Source: an uncultured Clostridia bacterium (GTDB lineage Bacteria; Bacillota; Clostridia; Lutisporales; Lutisporaceae). From it: a stretch of DNA of 44,905 bases. The stretch is taken from the NCBI GenBank assembly GCA_937930535.1, contig CALGKJ010000045.1:1-44905 (forward strand), given 5' to 3'. This document shows positions 5,101-33,478 of the stretch, in pieces. How positions within the stretch are numbered: position 1 is the stretch's first letter; every line of letters begins with the position of its first letter. Position numbers and translations under genes: made by a program. A model generated the notes under the pieces. It saw nothing but the letters and a program-made list of their open reading frames with translations. It had not been told where the DNA came from and did no database searches.

Positions 5101-6381
5101 ATGTACAAAAAAATATCAAAGGTATTGGCACTAATGCTTGTATTTGCATTACTGCTTACAGCAGTGGCGTGTTCAGCTAAGACAGCTACTTCTACAGGAA
5201 ACGATACTTCAACAGAAAACAAAAGCACAAAGGCAGCAAAGGAAATCGAGTTTTGGACAGTTTTCACAGGACCAGACGGCGAAAACATGGTAAAAATGAT
5301 AGACGAGTACAATAAAACAAATCCCAAAATCAAAGTAAAGCACATACCTATTCAAGCAGATGAAATGTATCAGAAAATACCTACAGCAGTTAAGTCAGGT
5401 CAAAACGTTCCAGATTTATCTATAGTTCATGTAGAAAGATTACAAGGCTTTGTTGACAATGATTTATTACAACCATTAAATGAATATATGACTGCTAACG
5501 GAAAAATAAAGGGTGAAAACTATGTTAAAGCAGCATGGGAAAGAGGCGAAATAAACGGCAAGCACTACAGTGTTCCGCTGGACGTTCACTCATTTGTTAC
5601 ATATTATAATAAGGACTTAGTACAAAAATACGGACCAACAGTATTGGATGACGGAGTAATAACCTTTGACGAAGTGAAGCAGGTTGGTGAAGCTGCAAAG
5701 AAGGATAAAGTACTAGGAATGGGCATCACTTGGATGCGTGTTAAATTCCTTTCATGGTATGACCAGCTTGGCGGAGTGCTTTCAGCGGATGGAAACAATC
5801 CAAGCTTTGCAAATGAAAAAGGTGAAAAGGCATTAAATGCAGTAAGAGAATTACATGATGCTGGTATTACTAACCTTGACGGTGAAGACCCAGTTCAAAT
5901 GTTCAGAGCAGGTCAGGTTGTATTCTTACCAGAAGGAATCTGGATGAAAAACTCCTTTGAAACAATTAACACACTTAACTTCGATATGACACACATGATA
6001 ACATTTGACCCTGCAAAAAAATCAAACTGGACTTCTTCTCACCAAATGGTAATGTTTAAGAATAAAAATATGGATGCAGAAAGAGCAGCCGCTATTATGG
6101 ACTTTGTAGCATGGGTTGGCGAAAACTCCCTTGAGTGGGCAAAAGCAGGTCAGGTTCCAGCATCCTTAAAGATAATGGAAAATGCTGAGTTTAAGCAAAT
6201 GAAGCAATCCTTCTTACTACAAGAACCAGATACTTTAAAGATATTTGATTACAAGTATTTCGGATATGCTGTAGAATCCTTAGATAAGATAGTATGGGAA
6301 GTTGCCTTCAGTAGAATGGGAGCAAAAGAGGCACTTGAACAGGCACAGAAGGAAACCATTGATAGAATCAACGCAAAATAA
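5101..6381 (+). CDS. Sugar ABC transporter substrate-binding lipoprotein
   Basis: The product is 426 residues, a normal length for family-1 sugar-binding proteins. It has a lipoprotein signal peptide: Lys-rich start, hydrophobic core LALMLVFALLLTAVAC, and lipobox Cys24. After a Ser/Thr-rich linker the mature domain starts EIEFWTVFTGPDGENMVKMI, the classic first strand and helix of extracytoplasmic sugar-binding proteins. The motif NVPDLSIVHVERL and the later Trp-rich stretches fit the same fold. It should sit on the outer face of the membrane and deliver oligosaccharides to the two permeases downstream. The substrate is probably an arabinose- or galactose-containing oligosaccharide, inferred from the neighbouring GH43 and GH2 genes. 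Confidence 0.92.
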   Translation: MYKKISKVLALMLVFALLLTAVACSAKTATSTGNDTSTENKSTKAAKEIEFWTVFTGPDGENMVKMIDEYNKTNPKIKVKHIPIQADEMYQKIPTAVKSGQNVPDLSIVHVERLQGFVDNDLLQPLNEYMTANGKIKGENYVKAAWERGEINGKHYSVPLDVHSFVTYYNKDLVQKYGPTVLDDGVITFDEVKQVGEAAKKDKVLGMGITWMRVKFLSWYDQLGGVLSADGNNPSFANEKGEKALNAVRELHDAGITNLDGEDPVQMFRAGQVVFLPEGIWMKNSFETINTLNFDMTHMITFDPAKKSNWTSSHQMVMFKNKNMDAERAAAIMDFVAWVGENSLEWAKAGQVPASLKIMENAEFKQMKQSFLLQEPDTLKIFDYKYFGYAVESLDKIVWEVAFSRMGAKEALEQAQKETIDRINAK

Positions 6382-28648: not shown

Positions 28649-28738
28649 GGAGGGGTGTCCGAGAGGTCGAAGGTCACTGACTCGAAATCAGTCGTACGTG
28701 AAAGCGTACCAAGGGTTCGAATCCCTTCCCCTCCGCCA
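28649..28738 (+). tRNA. tRNA-Ser(CGA)
   Basis: A 90-nt class II tRNA. The acceptor arm GGAGGGG (28649-28655) pairs with CCCCTCC (28728-28734), followed by G and an encoded CCA. The anticodon stem ACTGA/TCAGT encloses CTCGAAA, giving anticodon CGA (reads UCG). The long variable arm (CGTACGTGAAAGCGTACC) is typical for serine, and GGTTCGAATC is the T loop. Confidence 0.97.
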
Positions 28739-31073: not shown

Positions 31074-32336
31074 ATGCATAAATTAACTTTATCAGATATT
31101 AAGATTAAAAAGCCCGGAAAACAGCTGGAAGAAGTTATTATAAAGACATATGGAAGCGTAGAAAATTTTGCACAGCTAATAAATAGATATCCAGAATCAA
31201 TAAGCAGCTATTTAAGGGATAAAAATTGCGGTTCAAATAAATTTAAGACTACATTACTAGGTATGCTTAACAAATCCTATGATGATATAGTCAAAACAGG
31301 AAAGCAGCAGATTAAAGAGATGGTAGAAGCTGTATCGTGCAATATTAAACTATATGACAGCCCAAAGGATATAGCCATATTAGAGAGGCTGAAAGATTTA
31401 TGTATAAAAGAAGGTATGGAAAAAGAAACTGCGATGATGCTATTTAATATTGCAGTATACAATCGCAGAAGGGCAAACACGAGGGTTGCAGTTGAGCTTT
31501 TAAAGCATGCGGTCAGCATAATGGATAACATAGAAGAATTAGAATATACAGTAAAAATATTATCGGAGCTAGGTCTCGCATATTATCTTGAGCATGCGTA
31601 TGAAAAAGCTAAAGCAGCATTTCAAGAAGCTGAGAGCAATCTGGAGAAAATATCAGTTGATAACAATACTAGGTTTTTACTTTATTATAGAATAGGAATT
31701 TTATTGAACAATATTTCTCTGCATTCACAGGCTAGAGAAAGGTTTGCTGATGCAATCAAATATTCAGATAACGATACAGATACTGCAAATGCAACAATGA
31801 ATATAGGTTTAACCTATAAAAAAGAACAAAATTATACGAAGGCAATAGAATTTTTTAATACTGCACTGAAAATATTTAATCCTGATAATAAAGACGAAAT
31901 CGGCAAGACCTATAACAATTTGGCAGAAGTATATAGAAGCATGAAAGATTATACTAATGCATTAGAATATATAGAAAAGGCTTTAAAAATAGAAAAAAAT
32001 ACTGATATGAGGCACCTGTCTATAAAAGTACAAACATACATACAAATTAGGATTGATATGAAAGAACCTGATAATGCAATTGAGAAGCTGTTAGACTTAC
32101 TTGAGAATTCCGGCGAAAGCTATAGCGATAAAAAATATATTGCCAGTGGAATCGAAATACTGACAAAACACGCTGTACAAAGCAAGGATATTAAAAATAT
32201 AGACAAAGTAAAAAAGCTCATAATGAATATTATTGAGAAAAACCAGCTTCAAGACAGCATTATAAAAGAGCTGAAAATATGTATGGGTGAAATTAGTTTA
32301 GCCCTGTTAGAGGGAGGTGATGAAAATGAAGGATAA
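31074..32336 (+). CDS. HTH-TPR regulator, RRNPP-like peptide receptor
   Basis: The product is 420 residues; ATG 31074 follows AAGGAGTG. Residues about 15-75 fit a small XRE-type HTH (KTYGSVENFAQLINRYPESI, then SYLRDKNCGS and TTLLGMLNKSYDDIV). Residues 95-400 are a string of tetratricopeptide repeats, e.g. AMMLFNIAVYNRRRANTRVA, SELGLAYYLEHAYEKAKAAF, MNIGLTYKKEQNYTKAIEFF and NNLAEVYRSMKDYTNALEYI. This HTH plus TPR layout and length is that of RRNPP quorum-sensing receptors (Rap, Rgg, NprR, PlcR, PrgX), which bind short imported peptides. A secreted-peptide gene overlaps its stop, the standard receptor-pheromone order. The receptor call is by architecture; the sequence is not close to a named subfamily that I can recognise. 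Confidence 0.75.
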   Translation: MHKLTLSDIKIKKPGKQLEEVIIKTYGSVENFAQLINRYPESISSYLRDKNCGSNKFKTTLLGMLNKSYDDIVKTGKQQIKEMVEAVSCNIKLYDSPKDIAILERLKDLCIKEGMEKETAMMLFNIAVYNRRRANTRVAVELLKHAVSIMDNIEELEYTVKILSELGLAYYLEHAYEKAKAAFQEAESNLEKISVDNNTRFLLYYRIGILLNNISLHSQARERFADAIKYSDNDTDTANATMNIGLTYKKEQNYTKAIEFFNTALKIFNPDNKDEIGKTYNNLAEVYRSMKDYTNALEYIEKALKIEKNTDMRHLSIKVQTYIQIRIDMKEPDNAIEKLLDLLENSGESYSDKKYIASGIEILTKHAVQSKDIKNIDKVKKLIMNIIEKNQLQDSIIKELKICMGEISLALLEGGDENEG

Positions 32337-32466
32337 GCTGATTATTATAATAGTTATCACAGCCGTAGTCCTAAGCTTAGCAGTAGGTAAGCCTAAGATG
32401 GATGATGATAACCCTTACGGTAAGCATGTATCCAATCCAGTAAGCTGCAGCATATTATATAGATGA
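32326..32466 (+). CDS. Candidate Phr-like secreted signalling peptide, 46 aa
   Basis: A 46-codon gene starting at ATG 32326, 6 bases after GGAGGTG (32313-32319) and overlapping the receptor stop by 11 bp. It begins MKDKLIIIIVITAVVLSLAV, a short basic start and a hydrophobic export segment, followed by a hydrophilic tail DDDNPYGKHVSNPVSCSILY and a final Arg. This is the shape of Phr/NprX-type propeptides, in which the exported C-terminal piece is cut to a pentapeptide or so and re-imported by an oligopeptide permease. It is too short for automatic gene finders. The mature peptide cannot be predicted. Confidence 0.65.
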   Translation: MKDKLIIIIVITAVVLSLAVGKPKMDDDNPYGKHVSNPVSCSILYR

Positions 32467-32788: not shown

Positions 32789-32824
32789 GCCATAGAAGTT
32801 TAACTATCTATGGCTATTTTATTT
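32789..32824 (+). terminator. Terminator
   Basis: GCCATAGA (32789-32796) pairs with TCTATGGC (32807-32814), followed by TATTTTATTT. Confidence 0.85.
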
Positions 32825-33061: not shown

Positions 33062-33418
33062 TTGAACAAAAGCCAAATTATGAATAGGTTATTAGTAATA
33101 TTATTAGTTTTATTATTGGTCTTTGTATTTGCAGCATGCAATACAATAAACAAAAAAGAACCTGTACAGGATCCTTTAACACAATTCCACAATGAAGTTT
33201 TGAAGCAGGATCCCGATATAATAGATTCTAAATTGACAATGACTGATGACACTGTTGAGTGTACTATCGAGGTAAAAGAAGCTGCTACAAATGAATTTGC
33301 TAACCAGATTGGGAAGGATCACGCAGAGCAGCTAGCTAAGAGACTTCCGGGAAAAACAATTAAGATGAAGATTATGAAAAACGGAAATATTATTGGTGAT
33401 TTTTCTACTAAAAAGTAA
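33062..33418 (+). CDS. Small lipoprotein, 118 aa
   Basis: Not recognised beyond its signal. TTG 33062 follows AAGGAGGAG. The signal peptide (LLVILLVLLLVFVFAAC) ends in lipobox Cys26. The mature part has a two-strand/helix pattern (DIIDSKLTMTDDTVECTIEV, then NEFANQIGKDHAEQLAKRLP and GKTIKMKIMKNGNIIGDFST). The protein should sit on the outer membrane face. It has its own promoter and terminator, so it is monocistronic. Confidence 0.75.
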   Translation: MNKSQIMNRLLVILLVLLLVFVFAACNTINKKEPVQDPLTQFHNEVLKQDPDIIDSKLTMTDDTVECTIEVKEAATNEFANQIGKDHAEQLAKRLPGKTIKMKIMKNGNIIGDFSTKK

Positions 33419-33421
33419 TGT

Positions 33422-33478
33422 AAAAGGGGTTGTATTATATTAGAAATCGAATTTTTAATATAATACAACCCCTTTTTA
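33422..33478 (+). terminator. Very strong terminator
   Basis: A 20-bp perfect stem (33422-33441 with 33457-33476), starting AAAAGGGGTTGTATTATATT and its complement, then T residues. Confidence 0.95.

Follow-up and report, generated by a model that had tools for sequence, protein, structure and literature searches.

The window analysed here, a stretch of 44,905 nucleotides of contig CALGKJ010000045.1 of an uncultured Clostridia bacterium, carries on its forward strand a gene for a TPR protein whose 3' end overlaps a very small open reading frame, and the question raised by this locus is whether the two genes constitute a peptide quorum-sensing module and, if so, which part of the small product is the signal. 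RRNPP systems govern sporulation, competence, virulence, conjugation and phage lysogeny; most of those known come from cultured Bacillota with complete genomes. Draft and metagenome-assembled genomes are still to be mined, as the authors of the largest survey have pointed out (PMC10075063). We consider it probable, at roughly 0.78, that the two genes form an RRNPP-type quorum-sensing module belonging to an undescribed subfamily, that its pheromone is most likely a segment of the form xDxxDPxG and that DNA binding by the receptor is controlled by this peptide. The RRNPP kind itself is known, and precedents exist for large expansion (Alo), for loss of the HTH (Rap) and for a pheromone lying beside the signal-peptidase site (Phr3T); what is new here is the subfamily, the shared xDxxDPxG code and the scale reached in this lineage.

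The receptor gene and its predicted fold

The receptor gene (P0001, 31074..32336, forward strand) starts with ATG behind the ribosome binding site AAGGAG and encodes 420 residues. In an AlphaFold2 (AF2) model built from an alignment of 26 paralogs (A1) these form five short helices at residues 14-72 followed by about nine TPRs, with a pLDDT of 90.3 and a pTM of 0.82. The earlier note on this DNA had proposed an HTH-TPR receptor of the RRNPP type and had made that proposal depend on the presence of an HTH and of a peptide groove; the model bears this out, since it combines an XRE-type HTH with an RRNPP-like TPR superhelix. The HTH domain (31113..31289, forward strand) is assigned to the Cro/cI-XRE fold from the model and from fold matches, VIA-align of the domain predicted alone giving ImmR with Z 8.6 and an rmsd of 2.2 over 65 residues, and furthermore SinR (Z 7.7), CylR2 (Z 7.5) and ComR (Z 6.8). 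It is clear in the predicted structure though the Pfam and NCBIfam models miss it: Pfam returned only TPR matches for the receptor, a sequence-level HTH search of the same protein against Pfam, NCBIfam and PDB sequences gave no convincing match, and Pfam HTH families reached only noise level among the 26 paralogs, with HTH_3 appearing in one member at E 0.16. An N-terminal HTH of the XRE type is in any case optional for RRNPP proteins, having been lost in Rap.

The TPR part (residues 76-415; 31299..32318, forward strand), which holds the predicted peptide-binding groove, is modelled as a right-handed superhelix of the RRNPP type. Its top structural match is the eukaryotic protein LGN, a generic TPR superhelix, and the TPR fold by itself is therefore not diagnostic; directly after LGN comes the best bacterial match, NprR (5dbk, Z 22.8), and then phi3T Rap (Z 21.8) and RapI (Z 21.6). 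With NprR the receptor shares the architecture of an HTH and nine TPRs, but no close sequence relationship to NprR-NprX was seen and the peptide is a different one. The likeness to RstA of Clostridioides difficile, likewise an HTH-TPR regulator and one of the RRNPP type, extends to profile level, where hhalign found the receptor family collinear with RstA over 328 columns at a probability of 97.6%, although identity is just 20% and RstA has been described as an orphan regulator (PMC7376267). A comparison of AimR with A1 gave a weak and partial match, and a fold search of BFVD returned giant-virus TPR proteins alone and was uninformative. Among curated models (Pfam, NCBIfam, PHROGs) nothing beyond generic TPR was found for the receptor, in agreement with the earlier note, which recognised no named subfamily, and the genome accordingly adds a subfamily that such models see only as generic TPR.

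A more specific feature is the asparagine in helix A that anchors the peptide backbone in RapF (N227) and RapJ (N225) and also in PlcR and PrgX (PMC3601992). The candidate for this role is Asn243 (codon at 31800..31802, forward strand), which is kept in 24 of the 26 paralogs and which, in a single hhalign alignment of 76% probability, falls on the Asn of 'LYNLGL' in phi3T Rap (position 226), a residue that we take from its position to be the peptide-anchoring one. The helix-A asparagines of the next repeat, Asn281 and Asn282 (31914..31919, forward strand), are near-invariant (25/26 and 24/26 paralogs, respectively), and the columns of K249/K250 and of R207 are mostly basic. The TPR fold and the aligned anchor Asn are thus shared with phi3T Rap, but Rap lacks the HTH that the window receptor possesses, which sets the latter apart from the Rap phosphatases, and the Rap aspartate that pairs with Phr Arg2, D194 in RapF (PMC3601992), aligns here with the variable column 213.

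The signal motif and the predicted position of the pheromone

The propeptide gene (P0002, 32326..32466, forward strand) starts with ATG behind the ribosome binding site GAGGGAGG and encodes 46 residues, or 49 if an alternative GTG start at 32317 were used. The earlier note had described a 46-codon ORF overlapping the receptor gene by 11 bp, and indeed both ORFs are present with this overlap, each with its own ribosome binding site; a propeptide gene overlapping its receptor gene by 11 bp is likewise found in Rap-Phr of phi3T. The export-signal shape and polar tail ascribed to the product are also seen, in the form of a basic N-terminus, a hydrophobic stretch and a polar tail. While signal sequences were generally called from hydrophobicity and an AxA-type site, that of the window propeptide, MKDKLIIIIVITAVVLSLAVG (32326..32388, forward strand), rests on hydrophobicity and on alignment with those of 34 related peptides. 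Pfam, NCBIfam and PHROGs gave no match to the propeptide, and genes as short as these are easily overlooked in routine annotation.

In an ungapped alignment of the 35 propeptides anchored on the cleavage site, alanine occupies position -1 in 34 of them and is followed at a fixed distance by xDxxDPxG, with D2 in 24, D5 in 30, P6 in 34 and G8 in 24 sequences; positions 1, 3, 4 and 7 are variable and the tail is weakly conserved. The same gradient is apparent from the mean pairwise identity of the 19 paired peptides, which amounts to 0.47 over positions 1-8, 0.17 at 9-12 and 0.12 at 13-18. The predicted pheromone core of the window propeptide, MDDDNPYG (32398..32421, forward strand), is assigned from this motif and from the conservation and duplications in related propeptides. 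It is atypical in that D5 is replaced by N and in that VGKPK precedes the core instead of the FA^ cleavage site.

Three genes furthermore contain the core twice within one propeptide, the copies differing mainly by synonymous changes. In G003a (...VFA^VDDVGL...PM VDDVGL-stop) the copies are separated by three synonymous changes and no others, in G003b (...VFA^VHDTTPD...VL VHDTDPD-stop) by four synonymous changes and one replaced codon, and in C210 DPYN is repeated with two synonymous changes. A repeat like that of G003a arose in 1 of 5000 shufflings, and the exact repeat of G003b, taken alone, is weaker (124/5000). The first copies in two of the three genes begin exactly at the predicted signal-peptidase site and the second copies lie away from it, and the motif is therefore not merely part of that site. 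The layout is that of phi3T Phr (QEA RRGHTA, spacer, SRGHTS), which also has its pheromone, RRGHTA, at the signal-peptidase site and a second copy at the C-terminus, and whose internal copy was shown to bind and to be matured (PMC11343458). Core conservation, internal repeats and the phi3T Phr layout together point to the beginning of the exported fragment as the site of the pheromone, and judged from sequence the signal is probably this core, here about MDDDNPYG, and not the C-terminal tail. The RGHT signal is however basic and the one proposed here acidic, and conserved acidic peptide residues facing conserved basic groove residues would, if our inference holds, be the reverse of the pairing of Phr Arg with Rap Asp.

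The earlier note had instead sought the signal in the C-terminal 5-10 residues, and conservation and duplications make the segment behind the signal sequence the likelier place. A module of the same RRNPP type whose active pheromone is the C-terminus (e.g. SCSILYR), the DxDP part being a processing signal, nevertheless retains some plausibility, though we regard it as rather unlikely. The C-terminus is the usual position in known systems and holds for most Phr and Qsp peptides (PMC11343458, PMC10075063), and conserved tails are seen in the C134 pair, in C39 and in the C10/C146 pair. C134.1 and C134.2 have IYIPIQGVIR in common in their tails although three of the eight core positions differ between them; the tail may therefore matter as well, and the active signal may extend beyond the core or be located elsewhere. 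Against a C-terminal pheromone speaks the fact that, by the identities given above, no part of the propeptides is less conserved than the tail, and likewise that the units duplicated in G003a, G003b and C210 are DxDP-type cores with second copies off the signal-peptidase site. An N-terminal core also distinguishes the peptides from AloP13, which acts as the C-terminal hexapeptide SHGRGG, since the conserved and duplicated part is here the N-terminal xDxxDPxG (Alo was compared by description only). The Qsp peptides have Leu, Pro and Trp in common near their C-terminus (PMC7376267), a feature absent from all 35 peptides of this set. A literature search for the motif strings returned no such peptide; it did not extend to the supplement of the RRNPP_detector survey, where the family may figure as an unnamed cluster.

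Paralogous modules, their distribution and a proposed mechanism

The genome, whose 252 contigs add up to 4.69 Mb, encodes Spo0A and four OppA-type binding proteins and contains 33 receptor loci, four of which are cut by a contig end. The earlier note had staked its proposal on small ORFs also lying behind homologous receptors, and a signal-sequence ORF is indeed found downstream of 24 of the 29 loci that have downstream sequence; no recognisable peptide gene was seen behind the remaining five receptors (C229, C110, C120 and two on C11). A fixed scripted rule, requiring an own ribosome binding site, a hydrophobic stretch, a length of 35-80 residues and a start between -40 and +65 nt from the stop, detects such an ORF behind 21 of 28 paralogous receptors but, among the 239 other ORFs of the same DNA, behind a single one (Fisher p = 3e-24); if the D..DP motif is required as well, the counts are 18/28 and 0/239. 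Two tandem peptide genes occur in several operons (C10, C146, C230, C134, C57, C72), and decayed extra propeptide copies lie behind intact ones in L076 around 7575 (C72) and on contig C134 at 5893-5982. In Alo, too, peptide genes are occasionally missing, degenerate or doubled (PMC7425212).

It is improbable in light of this pairing that the TPR protein is an HTH regulator acting independently of the small ORF, with the peptide employed otherwise, for instance as a bacteriocin or in a toxin-antitoxin-like manner. Orphan receptors do exist, and two damaged receptors of the genome, L096 (C40) and L093 (C61), which carry an in-frame stop or lack the N-terminus, are followed by apparently intact peptide genes that look like senders without a receiver. 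Independent roles are however in poor agreement with a tight pairing repeated over 24 loci and several genera, with a motif at fixed spacing whose core is duplicated internally, and with a predicted RRNPP fold bearing the anchor Asn.

Returning to the reading as a quorum-sensing module, an HTH-TPR receptor gene with a small signal-sequence ORF behind it, present in very many paralogs per genome, is also the arrangement of AloR-AloP in Paenibacillus, where the type strain has 16 paralogs and some species more than 25 pairs (PMC7425212), and the present set is among the larger ones reported for RRNPP-type systems. Within the Clostridia, Qsr-Qsp of Clostridium acetobutylicum similarly combines an XRE HTH and TPRs with an unannotated small ORF downstream and several paralogs (PMC7376267). 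Receptor divergence correlates with peptide divergence, which would also be expected from simple co-inheritance. Excess substitution in the groove helices was sought between the closest receptors, C10 and C146, and no clear groove signal emerged, because the differences hit both helix types and the HTH is identical. Many receptor loci lie at contig ends (C9, C165, C170, C80, C52, C68, C40 and C151 of this genome), as if near-identical copies had broken the assembly there, which makes the true copy number uncertain; the receptors at the ends of C151 and C165 are identical over one stretch and may be parts of a single gene that was split.

Of 391 genomes sampled from the whole class, five yielded receptors of the A1 type, and each of these belongs to the GTDB family of the window: the window genome itself, one genome of the same genus (2 copies), G003, G005 and G009. 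The pairing of receptor and peptide gene recurs in G001, G003 and G005, and most receptors from the genomes of relatives also have a signal-sequence peptide with an xDxxDPxG-type motif. A search of GTDB contigs with P0001 gave no close relative in named genomes, and a G005 receptor used as query matched only its own record; IMG/VR yielded no relative, nor did phage and plasmid records under strict thresholds, where relaxing E to 1 brought up only generic TPR or weak matches with RstA among them. Genome G005 is JAJGRE01, which GenBank labels Calditrichales bacterium MX18-03; for the record of locus L108 (JAJGRE010000002.1) this label is probably wrong, since by GTDB it shares its family with a Spo0A-bearing genome.

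In the receptor tree one supported clade (100/99) comprises 22 receptors, 21 of them from the window genome, and much of the expansion is therefore lineage-specific. Four relatives in G003, G005 and G009 lack the HTH; the receptors of this kind, L037, L042, L038 and L044, have about 354-398 residues. They occupy two separate supported places in the tree, one formed by G003a and G009, whose sister is an HTH-bearing receptor, and the other by G003b and G005 C9, and the HTH was therefore lost at least twice. L037 and L038 retain the N-terminal KLTADNI...QQI and continue just past the HTH, like a clean in-frame excision.

By analogy with the known family, the propeptide would be exported by Sec, whereupon signal peptidase, together with one or more further proteases, would free a short peptide, most likely the xDxxDPxG segment (about MDDDNPYG in the window). 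After import by an oligopeptide permease this peptide would sit in the TPR groove of the receptor and alter DNA binding through the N-terminal HTH, and the approximately 30 diverged copies of the module would probably serve as parallel, partly private channels. More tentatively, at a little short of even odds, one uncultured spore-former may operate some 30 parallel channels in a single octapeptide code, in which signal peptidase sets the N-terminus, D2, D5, P6 and G8 are common anchors, perhaps to conserved Lys/Arg and Asn residues in the groove, while specificity is conferred by positions 1, 3, 4 and 7; the receptors without an HTH would then act on proteins and not on DNA. As the signal motif is explicit, cross-talk among the approximately 30 related channels is directly testable with cheap synthetic octapeptides.

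The 53-residue ORF and other features of the window

The next ORF downstream (P0003, 32605..32766, forward strand) encodes a membrane peptide of 53 residues, which the earlier note had suggested as an output of the module. That it is a regulated output, in the way of aimX in arbitrium, appears highly improbable to us, even if it has a ribosome binding site and the first strong hairpin lies behind it, at 32789-32814, such that co-transcription is possible. The peptide is single-copy in the genome, 22 genomes of the GTDB family yielded no relative, Pfam, NCBIfam and PHROGs gave no match to it, and no comparable gene stands behind the other modules, where a hairpin-plus-T terminator follows the peptide gene directly in many sister operons. 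Nor was a common output gene found among the clustered neighbours of the paralogs, the sampled neighbours being diverse from locus to locus, and the 53-residue peptide is probably not part of the module. That the 46-codon ORF itself, short and AT-rich as it is, arose by chance has next to no likelihood given the enrichment behind receptors (p about 3e-24) and a motif held in common with 34 other peptides.

Elsewhere in the window a tRNA-Ser (CGA) gene lies at 28649-28738, and the short ORFs listed there are artefacts. Beyond the 53-residue ORF, at 33062-33472, a small lipoprotein-like ORF (118 residues, TTG start) is followed by a 20-bp hairpin with a T run (33426-33472).
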